Part shown: positions 1 to 27,480 of the stretch, one piece after another
Layout of the letters: each line of letters begins with the position of its first letter
Position numbering within the stretch: position 1 is the stretch's first letter
IMG/VR virus record: IMGVR_UViG_3300025809_000100
Location: 1 to 27,480 of that record
DNA: 27,480 nt
Strand: one strand, 5' to 3'
From: a virus
Notes under the pieces: generated by a model
Database searches by the model: none
What the model was told of the DNA's origin: nothing
Seen by the model: the letters and a program-made list of their open reading frames with translations, nothing else
Program-made: the position numbers and the translations under genes

Positions 1-156
1 GATGCTTGAATACCATCCCCACTTTTTTCCAAATCCTGCTGAAATTGTGGTTGTTTCTCCATTTCCTCCTGTAAATAATTGCTCGTAACGTTCAGTAACT
101 CCAAGCCTAAACTTTGAAAAAAAAAAAGAGAACCAAGAACTGCATCTAATTTTATC
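1..156. repeat. Terminal direct repeat, left copy (circular overlap)
   Basis: These bases recur at 27326-27480. The only difference seen is the A run: 11 A at 117-127 here and 10 A at 27442-27451 in the right copy. The tail assembly chaperone gene reads continuously when position 1 is joined to 27325, so this is best explained as overlapping ends of a circular assembly rather than a functional repeat. A short physical terminal repeat cannot be excluded from sequence alone. Confidence 0.93.
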
Positions 157-599
157 TGCTTCATTATCTCTTTTGTGTCAATGTCATATTCTGCAATAGA
201 ATACTTACCTGCTGCCTTGTTTGTTATCGGACGATACAACACATTCATTGCCCTATGTAAATCTTGTTCTGATGGTAAAAAAGAATCTAAATCAATGTAT
301 TCACCAAAAGAAATTTCTTGTAAATTTGGAATAAATCCATACTCTACACCACCCATTTTAAAAGTAGTTACAAGTTCGGGTTTTTCTTGAAAGGTTTTTG
401 TCAGTACTTCGATGATCTTTTCAACATCTGAAAATTTGATGTTTCTGCAATCTTTATAATCAACATTACAAAAGATTTCAATCATCTTTAGCTGAAGAAC
501 ATATTCATCTTCTTTGTTAATCTCTTGAACTTTCAAAAATCTTTGATATTGTTCTAGGGTAATTTCAGATAGACTCGGTACAGTTACACTTGCTTTCAT
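1..599 (-). CDS. Tail assembly chaperone (gpG-like), 5' part; continues at 27325
   Basis: The frame starts at the ATG at 599 and runs off the window at base 1. Joined to 27325 it ends with TAG at 27268, giving 218 aa in all. The N-terminal 160 residues match the pattern of Bacteroidetes phage tail assembly proteins: start MKASVTVPSLSEITLEQYQ, then KMGGVEYGFIPN and ISFGEYIDLD, then VLYRPITNK and LGSLFFF. Residues 158-161 are coded by CTT TTT TTT TTT over an 11-base T run (plus-strand A run 117-127), a perfect T_TTT_TTT slippery heptamer. A -1 slip there enters the frame that ends at 27185 and gives a 246-aa G-T fusion, as in lambda gpG/gpGT. Tail chaperones of this type coat the tape measure protein during tail assembly. 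The gene follows the terminator at 637-666 and has the late CGTTATAT motif four bases before its ATG. The family call is from memory of homologues; the frame geometry is seen directly. Confidence 0.82.
   Translation of the reverse strand, partial: MKASVTVPSLSEITLEQYQRFLKVQEINKEDEYVLQLKMIEIFCNVDYKDCRNIKFSDVEKIIEVLTKTFQEKPELVTTFKMGGVEYGFIPNLQEISFGEYIDLDSFLPSEQDLHRAMNVLYRPITNKAAGKYSIAEYDIDTKEIMKQIKLDAVLGSLFFFQSLGLELLNVTSNYLQEEMEKQPQFQQDLEKSGDGIQA
117..128 (-). promoter_or_regulatory. Slippery T run for programmed -1 frameshift
   Basis: On the minus strand the zero frame reads CTT TTT TTT TTT CAA. Eleven consecutive T give a canonical X_XXY_YYZ site made only of T. Slipping back one base at the last TTT makes the next codons TCA AAG TTT AGG, which stay open for 85 codons to the TGA at 27185. 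The right-end copy of the repeat has only ten T in this run. Polymerase slippage on the same homopolymer would have the same effect as ribosomal frameshifting. Confidence 0.72.
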
Positions 600-636
600 A
601 AATATATAACGCAAAACAGAAGTGATTTTTAAACAC
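597..636 (-). promoter_or_regulatory. Late control motif before tail chaperone
   Basis: The minus strand reads GCGTTATATATTTATG, with CGTTATAT exactly four bases before the ATG at 599. An A-rich block (AAAAATC) begins 19 bases upstream of CGTTATAT. The same arrangement precedes the genes starting at 16637, 19019 and 21045. It lies just downstream of the terminator at 637-666, where a new transcript would have to start. It could be a late promoter giving a near-leaderless mRNA, or a translation element. Confidence 0.55.
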
Positions 637-666
637 AAAAAAAGGGCAGCCATTTCTGACTACCCC
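637..666 (-). terminator. Rho-independent terminator with GAAA tetraloop
   Basis: The minus-strand RNA has GGGUAGUCA and UGGCUGCCC pairing over nine base pairs (two G-U) around a GAAA loop, followed directly by seven U. It lies after the last gene of the early/terminase block (stop at 690) and before the tail chaperone, so it separates the two transcription units. Confidence 0.88.
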
Positions 667-4317: not shown

Positions 4318-4496
4318 AGTTCTTTCTTTAACTTCTCTATATATAACGTTGCGTCCATCAATTCTTCTTGAAGATGATTCAGCCATTCTAAGGGACTTAA
4401 ATCTTTTCTATCTAATGTCACACCATATTTCTTTATTCCTTCCTCTGAGCGTTCTTTAAACTTATCTAGAACGCTTTCTACTATACTATCTGTCAT
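4314..4496 (-). CDS. MazG-like small phage protein
   Basis: The product is 60 aa. The core RSEEGIKKYGVTLDRKDLSP, then WLNHLQEELMDATLYIEKLK, is the pattern of short phage proteins related to all-alpha NTP pyrophosphohydrolases (MazG-like), where the EExxD helix binds metal. At this length it holds only one of the metal-binding helices of full MazG domains, so activity is uncertain. It might clean up nucleotide pools during replication. It is joined to its downstream neighbour by an ATGA overlap, and the 35-aa membrane protein gene overlaps its start. Confidence 0.62.
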   Translation of the reverse strand: MTDSIVESVLDKFKERSEEGIKKYGVTLDRKDLSPLEWLNHLQEELMDATLYIEKLKKEL

Positions 4497-5994: not shown

Positions 5995-6024
5995 CAAAGA
6001 TATACACAAAAAGTTTAATAAAAC
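5995..6024 (-). promoter_or_regulatory. Bacteroidetes-type promoter (weak -33)
   Basis: The minus strand has TATCTTTG (6002-5995), which fits the TAnnTTTG -7 consensus, then a leader with AAACAAAC before the ATG at 5973. At the -33 distance (19-base spacer) it reads GTT rather than TTG, so this is weaker than the elements at 1334 and 9342. Confidence 0.45.
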
Positions 6025-6263: not shown

Positions 6264-6406
6264 CTTTTAATTCCGTTTACCTTATTTAGTTTTTTTCTTC
6301 TTTCATCACATCCGCAATCTTTGCCAGTGTATTTACTGTACCAATCCACCAAGGCTTTTATACCTGTGTATTTGGTTATGTAATAAATTAAATCTCCCAA
6401 TTTCAT
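6257..6406 (-). CDS. Small hypothetical protein (49 aa)
   Basis: The frame runs from the ATG at 6406 to TAA at 6257 and reads MKLGDLIYYITKYTGIKALV with a DCGCDERR motif (C31, C33). Proteins with this LGDxIxxITKxTGIK...DCGCDxR pattern are frequent in Bacteroidetes phages, from memory. The start overlaps the sigma-like gene stop as ATGA. The function is unknown. Confidence 0.7.
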   Translation of the reverse strand: MKLGDLIYYITKYTGIKALVDWYSKYTGKDCGCDERRKKLNKVNGIKRW

Positions 6407-6882
6407 AGTAAATGTTTTAGTTTGTTTTTAACCTTTTTGTAAGTGTTGTAAAGTGAGTAATAGGATATGTTTGTTTGCCGGGATAACTCAGAAATAGATT
6501 TACCTCCATCTATTATTTCGTAAACTTTTCGATCATACCAAAATAAAGTGTTTATTTCTTCAGTGACTGCTTCATAAGCATCTTCATAATTGATGTCTAA
6601 TTCACAATTTTCAATTTCTCCTAGTTCGACTATTTGAACTTTTGATTCTTTTCTTTTCAAGTCTAAAAAAAGCGATCTAAGCACTTTAAAAATATAGTAG
6701 TAGTTTATATCATCTTCACTGTATTGAATGTCTGTCCCTTTCTCTAATCGTTTCTGAACCTTAAAATACATCTCTTGAACTATGTCTTGTGATGTGTCAC
6801 GATTACAACCAAAGGATTTGACTATATCAATCCATTGATCATTCTTTTCAAATATTTTTTCAAGTGCCTTTGAGGGGATCAT
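6403..6882 (-). CDS. Sigma-70-like transcription factor
   Basis: The product is 159 aa, the length of an ECF-type sigma factor. Residues about 30-45 (TSQDIVQEMYFKVQKR) look like sigma region 2, which binds the RNA polymerase clamp and the -10 box. The C terminus (residues 126-159, KSISELSRQTNISYYSLYNT) is a helix-turn-helix like region 4.2. It lies in the early block right after the RecA-like ATPase, overlapping it by 23 bases. It could direct late transcription; the CGTTATAT element before four late units is the natural candidate target, but that link is inference. Alternatively it is a sigma-derived regulator that does not initiate transcription. Confidence 0.76.
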   Translation of the reverse strand: MIPSKALEKIFEKNDQWIDIVKSFGCNRDTSQDIVQEMYFKVQKRLEKGTDIQYSEDDINYYYIFKVLRSLFLDLKRKESKVQIVELGEIENCELDINYEDAYEAVTEEINTLFWYDRKVYEIIDGGKSISELSRQTNISYYSLYNTYKKVKNKLKHLL

Positions 6883-8701: not shown

Positions 8702-8709
8702 CAAATATA
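8702..8709 (-). promoter_or_regulatory. Possible -7 promoter box
   Basis: The minus strand reads TATATTTG, a perfect match to the Bacteroidetes TAnnTTTG -7 consensus, 13 bases before the ATG at 8689. No TTG lies at the -33 distance, so this may be chance in AT-rich DNA. Confidence 0.3.
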
Positions 8710-14304: not shown

Positions 14305-16281
14305 TTATTTCTTTTTAGTTGGATATGCACCTTGATTTGGCATATTTACTGGAGCAATTTGTGCCTCTTTCCATCCCCTTGGAGAAGGTTTGTAACTCTT
14401 AGGTATTGTTGTTGCTCTTTTGTATTTGTCAAAATCATCAGTTTTCTCTGTGTTCTTTTTAAGCCTATATAGCTGCTCTTTCCAAGCGTGTCGACAATAG
14501 ATACCACCTTTGAATTTAAAGAGGTTATAAGGCTTCCCTTTGTGTCCTAGTCGCTTGTTTACACCTTTGTCTGATGCTTTGTCAATGTCTTCAATTCTGT
14601 AAATGATTCCTTGCCCTGCTAACTTCATCATATTTGAGCAAAACAATCTAGATTCATTTCCGCTTTTCATTGCCTTCTTAGATTTCTTAAAATACTTGTA
14701 TCGTATTTTGTAAAGGTTTTTATCTAAGACAGAAAACACTTTTGGCTTACCTGTAATTTGATCTGCAAACTTTTGAAGTTTTGATTTACTTGGTTGAATT
14801 AATTGAGTTGCCCACTCTTCAAGATTCTCACCTTCATATTCTCTTTCATCTACTAGTTCCCATTCATCTGTGATAACCTCACCTTCCAATTCAGCAAGTA
14901 TCTCATCACCCATTTCATCAGTTAGTTCGGGAATTTCTTCACTTGCTTTATCGTGTGTCTCACAAGCCATAAACCATTCTTTGTCACCTTCCATGTGGGT
15001 GTGATATCCTTCACATCCTAATTTTTCTGCTTCTGCAATGGCTTCTTCTTTAGTCTCAAATACAGTTTGCCCATCAATCTCTTTTAAACTAATCTTTGAC
15101 ATCTGCACACCTGTTTCTTCTTCAATGTCTTCTTGGCTTTGTATTGTTGTGTCAACCTCTGTAAATTCTAATGGTTGCAAAGTCACAAAATAAAGATTTA
15201 AAGCAATGTCATTGTAGGCTAGTATTTGATCAAATGAATCAATTAAAAGTTCTTGAAACGGACGTATTACTGTGTTGTCCATCAATAAACTTGCAGTCTT
15301 TATTTCTTCAGCGTTATTGCCTAAACCCGAATTATCTTTTATTCCTAATAACATAGGTGAAACAACCCTATGCGCTACCATTATTTTTTGTGTAGCCTCT
15401 GTGGAAAGGAATTGATACTGATTGTGTGCATCGCTTAACTGAACAGGAGTAATGTCTGCTTTTGATTCTGCATTATCATTGAATGCAAGGATGAATTTAC
15501 CTGCGTTTGATGTCCCACTAAACTTAGATGCAATTTTGTTTTCTAATAATTGCCTTTCTTCTTGATTAGGTGTGCCGTTATTAAAGTTAATGAGCATGGA
15601 AGGTGCTAACCCATTCATTATATTATTAATGTGATAGTTAGAAATCTCTTCTTCTAACTCACAATATTGCAAACCACCTTGATAATCTACTGGCGAATAA
15701 TAATAGAAACCTGCTTTGTATGGTTTAATATATAAAATCTCAATATCCTCTTTTGACATCCCAAATGCCGGGATTCTTAAAGGTGTATCACTTGGTTTTA
15801 TGTTTGTCCAATCCTTAAAATAATAATAAGCAGAAACTTCACCTTCTTCATTTGCCTTTTCTGCCCTTAAAGTTTCTATTGGAAAGTGTTCTACTTTGAC
15901 AATCTTCTTTCTGTCTTTAGAATAGATTATTTGAGCAGCACATTGTCCCATTAATTTTAAATCGTAGGACAATTTTCTAACACAATCCTTCCCAAACATT
16001 GAAATCATTTGGGCATATTGATCGGGTTTTTTATTGGCATCTGTTGCGTTTAATCCTTTGCCATAAATTGCTTGGCTTATGCCATTAATAGCAGCGTTGT
16101 TTGTGGCTGATCCATTATATCTATCAATTAAGAATTGAAAGTAATTATTATCAGCACCATATTCTACCCAATCTTTGTTTTTTACCTCTTTTACTTCGGG
16201 TGAAGTGTAGGTGCTTAAATTAACAAACCCAATACTTGGTTGTTTTGTTACACCTTTTGGTAAACTCTTTTGTCTTTTCAT
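14305..16281 (-). CDS. Portal protein with C-terminal extension
   Basis: The product is 658 aa. Residues about 35-375 carry the portal core (DWVEYGADNNYFQFLIDRYN, YGKGLN, KMGQ-like LMGQCAAQIIY, and VAHRVVSPMLLGIKDNSGLG at 302-321). The portal is the 12-fold ring that DNA passes through. Beyond the core there is an insert with a possible zinc site (C423, H427, H429, C440, H443), then an acidic linker and a C-terminal domain (about 515-610) with LFCSNMMKLAGQGIIYRIED and KPYNLFKFKGGIYCRHAWKE. Bacteroidetes phage portals often carry this tail. The start overlaps the previous gene (ATGA). The gene follows capsid and tail tube genes rather than the terminase. Confidence 0.85.
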   Translation of the reverse strand: MKRQKSLPKGVTKQPSIGFVNLSTYTSPEVKEVKNKDWVEYGADNNYFQFLIDRYNGSATNNAAINGISQAIYGKGLNATDANKKPDQYAQMISMFGKDCVRKLSYDLKLMGQCAAQIIYSKDRKKIVKVEHFPIETLRAEKANEEGEVSAYYYFKDWTNIKPSDTPLRIPAFGMSKEDIEILYIKPYKAGFYYYSPVDYQGGLQYCELEEEISNYHINNIMNGLAPSMLINFNNGTPNQEERQLLENKIASKFSGTSNAGKFILAFNDNAESKADITPVQLSDAHNQYQFLSTEATQKIMVAHRVVSPMLLGIKDNSGLGNNAEEIKTASLLMDNTVIRPFQELLIDSFDQILAYNDIALNLYFVTLQPLEFTEVDTTIQSQEDIEEETGVQMSKISLKEIDGQTVFETKEEAIAEAEKLGCEGYHTHMEGDKEWFMACETHDKASEEIPELTDEMGDEILAELEGEVITDEWELVDEREYEGENLEEWATQLIQPSKSKLQKFADQITGKPKVFSVLDKNLYKIRYKYFKKSKKAMKSGNESRLFCSNMMKLAGQGIIYRIEDIDKASDKGVNKRLGHKGKPYNLFKFKGGIYCRHAWKEQLYRLKKNTEKTDDFDKYKRATTIPKSYKPSPRGWKEAQIAPVNMPNQGAYPTKKK

Positions 16282-16637
16282 ACTACGATATATTCATTGT
16301 TGTAAGAATCATCAGTTGTGTACACACCATCATTTAAGTTGTAATAATCATTATCCACTTGATTGATTGTTTGATCAGTACAAAAGATTCTATCTTTAAA
16401 AATTATGTTTGTTCCTGTGTAAAGTGTCATGTCATAGAAATGATTCTCTACTAAAATGGGTGAAAATGTGTTTTGATAAGTAACATAGTTACCCGATACA
16501 GTTGCCCCAGTGATGTTATATGTCACAGTTACATTTGTACTATCATCTCTTATGCTCATTGTGAATGCCGTTAAAGAATAATCTCTTGGTATTACTTTAA
16601 ATGTTTGTGCAGTTGCTGATGTCGTTAATACAATCAT
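16278..16637 (-). CDS. Structural/head completion protein (119 aa)
   Basis: I use the ATG at 16637 (MIVLTTSATAQTFKVIPRDY). An upstream TTG at 16652 is in frame, but the sequence between encodes the late GCGTTATAT motif, which stands four bases before the ATG as at three other genes. The product is beta-rich, with TYNITGATVSGNYVTYQNTF and an end YYNLNDGVYTTDDSYNN seen in Bacteroidetes phage structural genes. It precedes the portal with an ATGA overlap. A head or neck role is inferred from context. Confidence 0.62.
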   Translation of the reverse strand: MIVLTTSATAQTFKVIPRDYSLTAFTMSIRDDSTNVTVTYNITGATVSGNYVTYQNTFSPILVENHFYDMTLYTGTNIIFKDRIFCTDQTINQVDNDYYNLNDGVYTTDDSYNNEYIVV

Positions 16638-16664
16638 ACCTATATAACGCAAAAAAAATGATGT
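16635..16664 (-). promoter_or_regulatory. Late control motif before portal unit
   Basis: The minus strand has GCGTTATATAGGTATG, with CGTTATAT four bases before the ATG at 16637. CAAAAC begins 19 bases upstream of CGTTATAT. It is the same geometry as at 597, 19017 and 21043. Confidence 0.55.
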
Positions 16665-16670
16665 TTTGTT

Positions 16671-16832
16671 TTAAGAACCACACCCAACACAATCAATTTC
16701 TGTATTAATAGGCTTACAACCATTTGCCTTCATTTTTAAATTATGTATTTTGTCTTTTATTTCCATATCTGAGAACATATTTCCTGTTAATTGTGATTCT
16801 AAAGTTTTGATTTGATTGTGTATCTCTTGCAT
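16671..16832 (-). CDS. Small cysteine-containing protein (53 aa)
   Basis: The frame runs from the ATG at 16832 to TAA at 16671. It starts MQEIHNQIKTLESQLTGNMF as a helix and ends EIDCVGCGS, a CxxC ending that I recall from similar phages. A promoter-like pair lies upstream (16846-16874), right after a terminator, so it may be expressed on its own. The function is unknown. Confidence 0.66.
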   Translation of the reverse strand: MQEIHNQIKTLESQLTGNMFSDMEIKDKIHNLKMKANGCKPINTEIDCVGCGS

Positions 16833-16845
16833 TGATGTATAATTT

Positions 16846-16874
16846 GAAGGTTAAAAAATGTAAAAATAAGACAA
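16846..16874 (-). promoter_or_regulatory. Possible promoter
   Basis: The minus strand has TTG at 16874-16872, an 18-base spacer and TAACCTTC at 16853-16846, close to the host-type pattern. It overlaps the T tract of the terminator just upstream, so transcription could restart here. Confidence 0.4.
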
Positions 16875-16904
16875 AAAAAAAGCACCCCCTAAAAAGAGAT
16901 GCTT
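16873..16904 (-). terminator. Rho-independent terminator after tail tube gene
   Basis: The minus strand has AAGCATCTC and GGGGTGCTT pairing (nine pairs, two G-T) around a short loop, followed by nine T. It lies 22 bases after the stop at 16926. Confidence 0.85.
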
Positions 16905-16925
16905 TCACTAGAAGAAAATAAATAA

Positions 16926-17465: not shown

Positions 17466-17479
17466 ATTTTTTATATTTT

Positions 17480-17516
17480 AAAAAAAAAGGGTAGATAGAC
17501 ATACCCACCTACCCCT
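17480..17516 (-). terminator. Rho-independent terminator after capsid gene
   Basis: The minus strand has GGGTAG and CTACCC closing a 14-base loop region, followed by nine T. It lies 20 bases after the capsid stop at 17537 and ends 15 bases before the next ATG at 17465. Confidence 0.83.
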
Positions 17517-17536: not shown

Positions 17537-18442
17537 TTAAGAGTAAAGAACGATGTCAGAACCAATTCCGTACTGAACAGATGCCGCAAATCTCATGATT
17601 AAACGAACATTCTGTGAGCCATCCAAATCTCTCATATCTAATAACTTAACTTCGTTCTGATCGCTAAGTAAAGAAGTACCAAAGTACAAGTTTGATTTCT
17701 CAGCAGCTACCGCAGTGTTATTTGCTAATCCATTAGCAACAAACAAAGGAATACCACCGAAAGATAAAGGTGCGCCATTCTGATACCACAATGCTCCTCT
17801 GTTGTCAATACCACTTCCCAATGCACCCATTGCACCAACATAAGCCTTGGCAATGTTTTGTGATACATAGATATGTAAATCTTCCTTGCCGAACAAAGTA
17901 GCAGGAATAGCATCAACTATTTTCTGCATTTCTGTAACTACGTTTCCAACAACAACTGCACCTGCAACTACATCAATTACATCAGCATCAGCCGTCATAA
18001 GAGTTGTAAATCCGTCAAATTCACCTGCGTTTGCGTTTACTCCACTCCAAATGTTAGATTCTGTTTTAGCAGCTACCTCAGCAGCAAATTGTCCAATAAT
18101 AAAATCAGAAAACTTGGGAGGTAATTGATCAAAAGCAGAGTATCCCATTTGAGCAGCCTCCCAATCAGATTGGAAAGGTGTGAGACACATTTCTTGATTT
18201 ACTTGAAAATATTCGGGTTGAATAATTCGTTCAGTTAATGTAACTGATCCTGCGCTTGTGAAATCACAAGTTGCATCTACTACCAAACCACTAGTTGCTA
18301 CCTTCTTGATAACTTCTTTGTATTTGATATTTGGTTTTACTTCGATACCACCGTTTGCGATGGTGTTTCCACTCAAAAGGGCAGCAGAGATATATTCTCC
18401 TGCAAATTCTCCTGCGTAGGTACTGGTTATGTTTACAGCCAT
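17537..18442 (-). CDS. Major capsid protein, HK97-like
   Basis: The product is 301 aa. Residues 90-135 (DWEAAQMGYSAFDQLPPKFS) and the C-terminal half, GKEDLHIYVSQNIAKAYV and SFGGIPLFVANGLANN (about 229-244), then DMRDLDGSQNVRLIMRFAAS, match Bacteroidetes phage capsid proteins of the HK97 fold. Five hundred or so copies would form the shell; scaffold and protease genes lie just upstream, and a strong terminator follows. No separate delta domain is seen at the N terminus, consistent with the separate scaffold gene. The start at 18442 follows an A-rich leader one base after the scaffold gene. Confidence 0.88.
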   Translation of the reverse strand: MAVNITSTYAGEFAGEYISAALLSGNTIANGGIEVKPNIKYKEVIKKVATSGLVVDATCDFTSAGSVTLTERIIQPEYFQVNQEMCLTPFQSDWEAAQMGYSAFDQLPPKFSDFIIGQFAAEVAAKTESNIWSGVNANAGEFDGFTTLMTADADVIDVVAGAVVVGNVVTEMQKIVDAIPATLFGKEDLHIYVSQNIAKAYVGAMGALGSGIDNRGALWYQNGAPLSFGGIPLFVANGLANNTAVAAEKSNLYFGTSLLSDQNEVKLLDMRDLDGSQNVRLIMRFAASVQYGIGSDIVLYS

Positions 18443-18443
18443 T

Positions 18444-19019
18444 TTATTTTAAATTTGATATTTTTTGAAAAATTCTATCTTTAGTACTCATTACCCTATT
18501 CGGAGAAATGTGCATTTTTATTTGTTTTCTTGATTCGCCTTCGGGATTGTGCTTGATAGGCTTGGTTGCCGGTTCAGCAGAAAGTTTTTCTTTAACTTCC
18601 TCTTCTACCTTACTAGCTTCCATTTTATCGGCTTTCAAATCCGCAATGGCATCCTCAAGATTTTTAATTCTTACTTCCATTCCTTGCCAATCAGCAACAT
18701 CCGCTTCTTCAGCTAAATCTTCTTCAACTAAATCTTCTGTTTCTTCTTGTGGAACTTCATCACTCACTTCTCTAACATCAGCAATTTTGCCTTCTTCTTC
18801 AACAACTAAAAGTCTTGAATCTTCAAGCATATATTCACCAACGGGAAGTGCTACTTTTTCATCTTCAGTCATGATAAAAATATCATTACCTTCTTCAAAT
18901 GATTCTGCTTCTACAACAGTTCCATTTTCTAATTTTAGGCTTTCTAGTTTAATCTCTTTCTTTTCAAGATCAATTCCTAAAACCGTTTTGATTTGGTTTA
19001 AAACTTCATTTGATTTCAT
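18444..19019 (-). CDS. Scaffolding protein (probable)
   Basis: The product is 191 aa from the ATG at 19019 (MKSNEVLNQIKTVLGIDLEK); a second ATG at 19025 would add two residues. The later start keeps the four-base spacing to CGTTATAT seen at three other late genes. The protein is very acidic, with a beta part VALPVGEYMLEDSRLLVVEE at about 57-76, an acidic stretch and a coiled coil (about 113-150), then a basic C terminus (HISPNRVMSTKDRIFQKISN). This layout is that of scaffolds that bind capsid through a basic end and are cut out by the protease. It directly precedes the capsid gene. Confidence 0.75.
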   Translation of the reverse strand: MKSNEVLNQIKTVLGIDLEKKEIKLESLKLENGTVVEAESFEEGNDIFIMTEDEKVALPVGEYMLEDSRLLVVEEEGKIADVREVSDEVPQEETEDLVEEDLAEEADVADWQGMEVRIKNLEDAIADLKADKMEASKVEEEVKEKLSAEPATKPIKHNPEGESRKQIKMHISPNRVMSTKDRIFQKISNLK

Positions 19020-19046
19020 ATTCATATAACGCTTATTAAAATTTAT
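19017..19046 (-). promoter_or_regulatory. Late control motif before scaffold/capsid
   Basis: The minus strand has GCGTTATATGAATATG, with CGTTATAT four bases before the ATG at 19019. CAAAAT begins 19 bases upstream of CGTTATAT. Confidence 0.55.
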
Positions 19047-20163: not shown

Positions 20164-21045
20164 TTATTTTAATAATTGCTTACCTTTTTGTAATTGTTTT
20201 TCTCCGTATTCTATTGCTTTTAATGCTTCTTTATATTTTGGAATACTATTTGGATTTACACCTAAATCTTTAGATGCTGCCTCCACTTTTGTTAAACCCT
20301 TTTTTAACATATTAATATCTCCTTGTAAATCTTCAATATCTACCTTCATAGATACAATAGCAGATTTTAATTGCTTTTCACCTATATCAATATTTTTTCC
20401 AAATACTTCTACACCTTTAATATATTTTAAAGCATCATCTATTAAACCCAATTCTACCCTTTTACCTTTGACAATGCTTGTTATTTTACTAAGCAATAAA
20501 TCTGCTTCTTGTTCTTCTTTTTTCATTTCTGATGCTTTAATTTTATCGGCAAAAAAGCCTTCTATGCTAAATCCTTTTACTTTACCCTCCTTCACAAATT
20601 CATTCCAAATTTTTTCATTGTTAACTTTGACAGTTCCCATCCAAGTTCCAACTGGTACATTCAAACCGTACTTTCTTGATTTGTCTTGAACCTCATCTTC
20701 TACTATCCAACTTTCAACCAATGTCAATCCTTCTAAATTGTCAGAATGTTCTAGTGTTGAATTGTTTTGATATCCATTGGTTAGGTATCTTTGTGAGGCT
20801 TTTAATACAGTATCTTTTGAGAAATATATATAATACTCATCTCCTTCTGTCTTTCTGTATATAGGCTTATTTGGGATTAATAAAGCACCCATTAAAATCT
20901 TTTTTTCTGTGTCAACTTCTGCAAGTTTTACTTCTTCAGATTTTAAAGCCACAAAATCAGATTCAATAGCAGGTGATTCAACAATAGAGATAGCTTCAAT
21001 TCCGCTTTCTTCATTGTCATCTAAAACTAATTCTACGATTTTCAT
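20164..21045 (-). CDS. XkdF-like prohead protease
   Basis: The product is 293 aa. The N-terminal 170 residues match the XkdF-type prohead serine protease: AISIVESPAIESDFVALK (18-35), KKILMGALLIPNKPIYR (48-64), TLEHSD with H100, LVESWIVED (109-117), GTWMGTVKVNNEKIWNEFVK (133-152) and GFSIEGFF with S160 as the likely nucleophile. It would mature the prohead by cutting the scaffold. A helical C-terminal extension (about 185-293) resembles the next gene's product. The gene follows the tape measure gene and carries the late CGTTATAT motif before its ATG. Confidence 0.82.
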   Translation of the reverse strand: MKIVELVLDDNEESGIEAISIVESPAIESDFVALKSEEVKLAEVDTEKKILMGALLIPNKPIYRKTEGDEYYIYFSKDTVLKASQRYLTNGYQNNSTLEHSDNLEGLTLVESWIVEDEVQDKSRKYGLNVPVGTWMGTVKVNNEKIWNEFVKEGKVKGFSIEGFFADKIKASEMKKEEQEADLLLSKITSIVKGKRVELGLIDDALKYIKGVEVFGKNIDIGEKQLKSAIVSMKVDIEDLQGDINMLKKGLTKVEAASKDLGVNPNSIPKYKEALKAIEYGEKQLQKGKQLLK

Positions 21046-21072
21046 AACTATATAACGATTTAAATTTTAATT
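21043..21072 (-). promoter_or_regulatory. Late control motif before protease
   Basis: The minus strand has CGTTATATAGTTATG, with CGTTATAT four bases before the ATG at 21045. CAAAAA begins 19 bases upstream of CGTTATAT. It lies in a 34-base gap after the tape measure stop at 21080. Confidence 0.55.
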
Positions 21073-27188: not shown

Positions 27189-27442
27189 CTTCTTTGCTTA
27201 TTTTTTATTTGTTGTGCTTCTGCTTCGTTCTTTTCTTTCATAAATGTTAACATCGTTAAACACTTATCTAGTTCAAGGGAAGTGATACTTTCAAATCTTT
27301 CAATATCTCCTTGAGAGAGTGCATAGATGCTTGAATACCATCCCCACTTTTTTCCAAATCCTGCTGAAATTGTGGTTGTTTCTCCATTTCCTCCTGTAAA
27401 TAATTGCTCGTAACGTTCAGTAACTCCAAGCCTAAACTTTGA
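27185..27442 (-). CDS. T-domain of tail chaperone, -1 frame
   Basis: This open frame is reached from the chaperone gene by a -1 slip at the T run. It begins SKFRLGVTERYEQLFTGGNG and contains KKWGWYSSIYALSQGDIERF and TMLTFMKEKNEAEAQQIKN, a pattern common in Bacteroidetes phages just after the G-like gene. It adds 85 residues and makes a 246-aa GT form with the 1-599 part. An in-frame ATG at 27469 (MQFLVLFFF) exists in this 10-A copy, but it lies inside the G gene. It fully overlaps the 57-codon zero-frame tail. Confidence 0.72.
   Translation of the reverse strand, partial: SKFRLGVTERYEQLFTGGNGETTTISAGFGKKWGWYSSIYALSQGDIERFESITSLELDKCLTMLTFMKEKNEAEAQQIKNKQRR
27268..27441 (-). CDS. Tail chaperone gpG, C-terminal part (zero frame)
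   Basis: This is the continuation of the gene at 1-599: 57 codons from the slippery run to TAG at 27268. It reads QSLGLELLNVTSNYLQEEME and later HSLKEILKDLKVSLPLN. In this right-end copy the A run has 10 rather than 11 bases, so it is out of frame with the start of the same copy. With the 11-A left copy it is in frame. Confidence 0.75.
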   Translation of the reverse strand, partial: QSLGLELLNVTSNYLQEEMEKQPQFQQDLEKSGDGIQASMHSLKEILKDLKVSLPLN

Positions 27443-27480
27443 AAAAAAAAAGAGAACCAAGAACTGCATCTAATTTTATC
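27326..27480. repeat. Terminal direct repeat, right copy
   Basis: It is identical to 1-156 apart from one fewer A in the run at 27442-27451. Confidence 0.93.

Follow-up and report, generated by a model that had tools for sequence, protein, structure and literature searches.

The window, by which we mean the entire 27,480-nt stretch of viral DNA analysed here, comes from an IMG/VR virus record and carries nearly all of its genes on the minus strand. Its first 155 bases recur at positions 27326-27480 with one base different, in a homopolymer, so the window probably represents a whole genome that is redundant at its ends. Closest among named phages are the Nonlabens phages P12024S and P12024L, with portal proteins ~32% identical to that of the window, and hundreds of IMG/VR contigs are closer still; the clade is a large one of uncultured marine viruses whose hosts are probably flavobacteria, host and late timing both being taken from relatives and gene content. 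Scans of the window for tRNAs and Rfam families gave no match, and a capsid search of a species-genome collection returned one contig only, labelled as a Woesearchaeota MAG and probably misbinned.

Gene units and the element at their heads

Four genes (Table 1) stand first in units that run on into the genes for tail, protease, scaffold/capsid and portal, as the initial annotation had recognized; the probable capsid gene and the portal gene themselves stand second in their units and lack the motif. Before each head gene lies the same box, CGTTATAT, exactly four bases from the ATG, and 19 nt upstream of its C begins a second block, CAAAA at three sites and AAAAA at the tail site, just as first described. 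A fifth CGTTATAT (4341-4348) lies inside a gene; it has no such block upstream, and no ATG follows at the matching distance. The full arrangement, [C/A]AAAA-N14-CGTTATAT-N4-ATG, has four matches in the window, all of them on the coding strand and none on the other, and it appeared in none of 300 dinucleotide shuffles (mean 0.0). With one mismatch allowed, the box by itself was seen 25 times against 23.9 expected, which is not significant; the significance of the element thus comes from its position and second half and not from the count of CGTTATAT alone.

Scored with a PWM trained on non-close relatives only, three window sites reached 23-29 bits, compared with 16.6 bits for the best of 20 shuffled windows. 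The tail site scored only 9.6 bits because its -35 half reads TAAAA/AAAAA instead of CAAA, and we regard it as a candidate on the basis of its conserved position. The element also corrects predicted start codons. The scaffold ORF has another in-frame ATG at 19025, overlapping the box, and the geometry at the other sites together with the relatives makes 19019 the likely start; the gene heading the portal unit would start at 16637 instead of at a TTG at 16652.

Table 1. Genes, predicted promoter elements and terminator-like hairpins of the window.
Feature	Position	Strand	Basis or remark
Tail gene (chaperone-like by position), heads tail unit	1..599	-	crosses circular join at 27480
P-tail, putative late promoter, -10 box CGTTATAT	604..611	-	predicted start 599 (ATG 597-599); core-clade orthologues alike
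P-tail, putative -35 half AAAAA	626..630	-	core TAAAA, weaker than CAAA elsewhere
Terminator-like hairpin (GGGTAGTCAGAAATGGCTGCCC) and T-run directly upstream of P-tail	637..666	-	sequence; relatives alike
Host-type -7 box TATCTTTG (TAnnTTTG)	5995..6002	-	before leadered early gene; contrast case
159-aa ECF-like sigma factor (sigma-2 and sigma-4)	6403..6882	-	proposed reader of late promoters
Host-type -7 box TATATTTG	8702..8709	-	early region, upstream of sigma gene
Portal gene, second in unit	14305..16281	-	without own motif
Small gene heading portal unit	16278..16637	-	
P-portal unit, putative late promoter, -10 box CGTTATAT	16642..16649	-	predicted start 16637 (ATG)
P-portal, putative -35 half CAAAA	16664..16668	-	
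Terminator-like hairpin and T-run upstream of portal unit	16873..16915	-	short ORF intervenes in window
Probable major capsid gene, second in unit	17537..18442	-	without own motif
Scaffold-like gene, heads capsid unit	18444..19019	-	position, composition, gene order
P-scaffold/capsid, putative late promoter, -10 box CGTTATAT	19024..19031	-	predicted start 19019, second ATG of the ORF
P-scaffold, putative -35 half CAAAA	19046..19050	-	
Head maturation protease-like gene, heads a late unit	20164..21045	-	PF14550
P-protease, putative late promoter, -10 box CGTTATAT	21050..21057	-	predicted start 21045 (ATG)
P-protease, putative -35 half CAAAA	21072..21076	-	

Other features of these units were observed along the way. 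The tail gene (~216 aa, start 599) overlaps a conserved alternative-frame ORF (...EFRDRL...GWYSSIYALAQGDI...) at a T9-T11 run (117-127 and 27442-27451, minus strand) that has 11 T in one end repeat and 10 in the other; the run and the relation between the frames persist in 6/6 relatives examined, suggesting that a programmed frameshift gives a G/GT-like tail chaperone pair. The major capsid gene is directly followed, at 17478-17513, by a hairpin and T-run that resemble a strong terminator, 20 nt ahead of the next gene; this structure is common among relatives and probably lowers downstream expression. A short ORF (MQEIHNQIKTLESQ..., 16674-16842, minus strand) lies between the terminator and the promoter of the portal unit, and most relatives have none there. 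One record (L016/G003) combines a capsid fragment 100% identical to that of the window with a sigma factor only 58% identical, reflecting module exchange or a chimeric assembly.

Conservation and geometry of the element

A scan of 2.9 million viral contigs that used DNA only, with no protein information, returned at least 143 matches to CAAA-N15-CGTTATATA-N3-ATG, at least 134 of them directly before orthologues of the same four genes; a control in which the spacer was lengthened by three bases (N18) gave 30 sites altogether, and an ORF of at least 100 codons followed 12 of these. With gene groups set by tblastn from the window, start codons called automatically and forced to ATG, and near-identical upstream regions removed, CGTTATAT preceded the four genes at 75/125 distinct orthologous starts, versus 0/397 starts of 13 neighbour genes, capsid and portal included. 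Among ten long relatives read, all four sites are present in near-complete G002, G004, G013, G017 and G020, and three of the four in G019 and G024. In P12024S, the Nonlabens phage available in culture, seven gene starts have CGTTA 11-12 nt ahead of the ATG, with ACAAA upstream at 6/7 and a spacing one base shorter than that of the window; some starts in divergent lineages have no motif, or none that was recognised.

We then aligned 91 sites on the C of the box, CGTTA being required for entry and CAAA not. CAAA occupied positions -19 to -16 (93-100%) and CGTTATATA positions 0 to 8, separated by an A/T spacer that is nearly free, and the xCAAA block began exactly 20 nt before C in 83/91 sites. 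Counted from C, the A of the ATG lay 12 nt away at 40 sites and 13 nt away at 31, with smaller numbers at 14 (7), 15 (7) and 16 (5). The element thus recurs at the same four genes with its halves locked to one another, and the fixed distance to the ATG that had been proposed does not extend to the relatives, where it varies from 12 to 16 nt. Locked halves combined with a sliding ATG indicate the geometry of a promoter and not of a translation signal.

This bears directly on the two options left by the initial annotation, a -10-like box yielding leaderless mRNAs or a translation signal at a fixed distance. A translation-initiation signal in the mRNA, fixed relative to the start codon, would agree with the nearness of the element to the ATG in the window and with the A-rich upstream context used in Bacteroidetes, which have no Shine-Dalgarno sequences (PMC6847099). 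The ATG slides while the halves stay locked, however, the second genes capsid and portal lack the element, and the same box stands 33-35 nt before a small-terminase-like gene in three relatives; on these grounds we rejected this reading as very improbable. Chance, or a duplicated leader kept by descent without function, could draw on the AT-richness of the genome, but the full arrangement never arose in the shuffles, both halves are invariant and conserved above a nearly unconstrained spacer, and the element persists where the sigma factor described below is only ~50% identical, leaving this reading with almost no probability at all.

Terminators were weighed separately. In 47/52 distinct relatives a terminator-like hairpin and T-run ends 20-49 nt (mostly 32-49) before the ATG of the portal unit, a gap with room for little besides the element; the terminator abuts the promoter in most relatives, unlike in the window. 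A gene without the motif, g17465, next after capsid, also has a terminator just upstream, which means that read-through happens and that terminators alone prove nothing; we therefore set aside terminator presence as proof of a promoter.

Related sites occur at other genes. The three boxes before small-terminase-like genes (G013 24237, G020 17808 and G024 1056, all on the minus strand; loci L270, L275 and L277) are followed by an A-rich leader, ATTGAATAAACAA, between box and gene, and the window keeps a similar leader at ~2855-2885, where the CGTT box is missing. ParB-like genes lie directly after CAAA-N15/18-CGTTATATA-N3-ATG at L333, L365, L380, L419 and L423, and may be another gene under promoters of this type.

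The predicted start site follows from the register of ECF promoters, exemplified by the -10 elements G(-11)T(-10)T(-9) of Mtb sigmaH (PMC6411747) and T(-12)G(-11)N(-10)C/A(-9) of sigmaL (PMC6372665). Reading CGTT in this register, with C as -12, places +1 12 nt after C. That position is the A of the ATG in all four window genes and at 40/91 relative sites, and one base before it at 31 further sites; an mRNA 5′ end at the AUG is the prediction from this geometry. Of the two original options, it is therefore the -10-like box, from which transcription would begin at the ATG, that is strongly supported, through the rigid spacing, the sliding ATG, the restriction to unit heads, the adjoining terminators and a phage ECF-like sigma factor, whose gene the earlier reading had overlooked.

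Leaderless mRNA might nevertheless not be the functional form, if leadered read-through RNA were mostly translated or if the 5′ end lay at least one base inside the start codon. No terminator separates the scaffold and protease promoters from the upstream genes, whose ends they follow or overlap; some RNA is therefore probably made by read-through, and start sites may shift by one or two bases. Yet the ATG stands 12-13 nt from C in 71/91 sites, as ECF geometry predicts for +1, and the portal-unit promoter lies just behind a terminator; we consider this alternative unlikely, and favour start sites at the ATG.

The candidate sigma factor

The gene proposed to encode the reader of these promoters lies near ERF and AAA genes, which are of early type, and has no late motif upstream. 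Its product shows a region-2 pattern (DIVQEMY...YIFKVLRSLFLDLKR) and a C-terminal helix-turn-helix. An AlphaFold2 (AF2) model using 66 family sequences (mean pLDDT 88) has two helical domains, about 1-84 and 97-159, in the sigma-2/sigma-4-only layout of ECF factors, and its top PDB fold matches are ECF sigmas, namely Mtb sigmaH, sigmaL and sigmaE, E. coli sigmaE and also SigW. The sigma-4 domain superposes on region 4 of E. coli sigmaE with Z 9.0 and an rmsd of 1.5 Å, and the sigma-2 domain matches SigR and others. With an E-value limit of 0.1, Pfam Sigma70_r2 was found in 47/66 homologues (best E 2.9e-05), the window protein alone falling under the gathering cut-off, and Sigma70_r4_2 gave weak matches only (2/17), the sigma-4 likeness being mostly structural. 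Because sequence profiles are weak, we base the assignment on the combination of pattern, fold and context; architecture and promoter core support a putative membership of the protein in the ECF group. Foldseek also gave a weak match to chain F of the gp79-dependent RNAP complex (9m7y_F, E 0.077), which we treat as a lead only.

Homologues were found in 19/20 family records longer than 23 kb, fragmentary records often lacking the part of the genome that holds the gene. P12024S is among the 19, and its homologue, gp33, is annotated with sigma-70 region 2. No relative of the window sigma was found in the species-genome collection, and a host origin was rejected on that ground.

Sigma and motif vary in parallel. 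Where the sigma is ~50% or more identical the motif is unchanged; in L149 (35% identical) it reads GCAAA...CGTTA with a looser tail; and at 22-27% identity it becomes AAAACAAA...CGTTAATATA (P12024S), AAAACAAATT...TGTTACTTATAAT (L058) or AACACT...TTTACATTA (L080). Judged from their sequences, sigma/promoter pairs seem to have diverged in concert, in a small number of lineages, about five. A further lineage, G006/L036 (49.8 kb; L426-L428), has a related motif, AACAAAA...AGTTATCTTATTATG, before the same genes; no sigma homologue was detected in G006, and a search there for a divergent sigma gave no convincing candidate. As a separate observation, L080 (G012) and L082 carry a divergent late motif, AACACT-N-CTTTTTTTTACATTA...ATG, before tail and scaffold genes, which in L080 accompanies a sigma only 23% identical.

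Two other readers of promoters at these sites were weighed. The host primary sigma was rejected, as TAnnTTTG is missing at the late sites while intergenic TAnnTTTG boxes occur in the early region. A host ECF sigma could read promoters of the same geometry, the phage sigma then having another role: F. psychrophilum has seven ECF sigmas and the CGT-box motif SM6 (PMC9723704), and G006 combines a related motif with no detected phage sigma. The phage homologue is nonetheless present in nearly all long records, motif changes accompany sigma divergence, and host ECF sigmas are condition-induced (PMC9723704), a poor fit for obligatory late transcription. We judge recognition by a host ECF factor improbable and retain the phage sigma as the proposed reader.

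A proposed late-transcription switch

Phage sigma factors directing late promoters are of a known kind, and the present case shares with them a sigma gene among early-type genes and a common promoter before four virion units. T4 gp55 is likewise a phage sigma for late genes; unlike here, its promoters (TATAAATA) consist of a single -10 element used with a sliding clamp and a coactivator, with no -35 half. According to the accessible part of one report, Salmonella phage 7-11 has late promoters of the form GTAAtg-(16)-aCTA, read by the phage sigma SaPh711_gp47, and phiEco32 gp36 serves middle and late promoters of the form tAATGTAtA (PMC8948821). In 7-11, as proposed here, a phage sigma brings host RNA polymerase to bipartite late promoters, early genes being left to the host primary sigma; the consensus is different, the host is enterobacterial, and a leaderless layout is not stated in that part. 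In phiEco32 a small phage sigma likewise replaces host specificity, at middle and late genes. As far as that account goes, its promoter differs in being a single element, and gp36 in lacking region 4 homology, whereas the window sigma has both regions.

A CGT in the -10 region is a signature of ECF promoters, so the initial statement that no element of this form was known does not hold. In the F. psychrophilum motif SM6, too, a CGT box has been attributed to ECF sigmas (PMC9723704), and the Mtb sigmaH promoter reads GGAACA/GTT (PMC6411747). The element has a CGT/GTT -10 core (CGTTATATA in the core clade, CGTTA in P12024S) and a rigid spacer, which it shares, together with a sigma-2/sigma-4-only factor, with bacterial ECF (group 4) systems. 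Its -35 half, [A/G]CAAA, is placed suitably for sigma-4, and in the core clade it shows no evident AAC; CAAA here stands against GGAAC in bacteria, and the regulon here consists of phage virion genes. Deinococcus-type -10/ATG arrangements place a -10 box so that +1 falls on the start codon. Leaderless mRNAs are likewise found in mycobacteria (PMC4633059); in both cases the placement of the box resembles that proposed here and the genes are cellular. A paper describing a promoter of the window type was not found in a literature search with subscription journals mostly outside it. What appears new is the ECF-like two-box form in flavobacterial phages, with the box placed so that the start codon would be the start site.

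Sequence comparison and the structural model together make it quite likely that an ECF-like sigma encoded by the phage directs the synthesis of late mRNAs that are essentially leaderless. The sigma would be made first, from a gene that has early-type genes and host-type TAnnTTTG boxes around it. Host RNA polymerase carrying it would then read the late promoter, with [A/G]CAAA at -35 bound by sigma region 4 and CGTTATATA at -10 by sigma region 2. Transcription would start at the A of the ATG, giving leaderless mRNAs in the window and leaders of 0 to ~4 nt in relatives, and the tail, protease, scaffold/capsid and portal units would be switched on. Counting against this are the -35 half, CAAA where ECF promoters usually have AAC, the weak -35 half of the tail site, the related motif in G006 with no sigma homologue detected, the sub-threshold Pfam score of the window sigma, and the starts in divergent lineages at which no motif was recognised.

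A broader proposal, on which we are evenly divided, is that the clade ties its late programme to leaderless mRNA, the sigma setting +1 on the AUGs of four unit heads. Leaderless mRNAs amount to 5.5% in F. psychrophilum (PMC9723704), and in F. johnsoniae 87% of mRNAs have leaders longer than 10 nt (PMC6847099). If the proposal is true, virion mRNAs would bypass the leader-based, Shine-Dalgarno-free initiation of the host, possibly favouring late phage translation, and it raises the question of how leaderless mRNA is translated at a high level in a phylum without Shine-Dalgarno sequences.

Collectively, the analysis proposes a complete late-transcription switch, with sigma, promoter, four units and start sites to the base, in a group of very common marine phages that has a cultured member, Nonlabens phage P12024S. 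The sigma/promoter pairs of this group, which seem to have diverged in concert, make up a natural series, and orthogonal pairs from it may serve as expression tools for flavobacteria.
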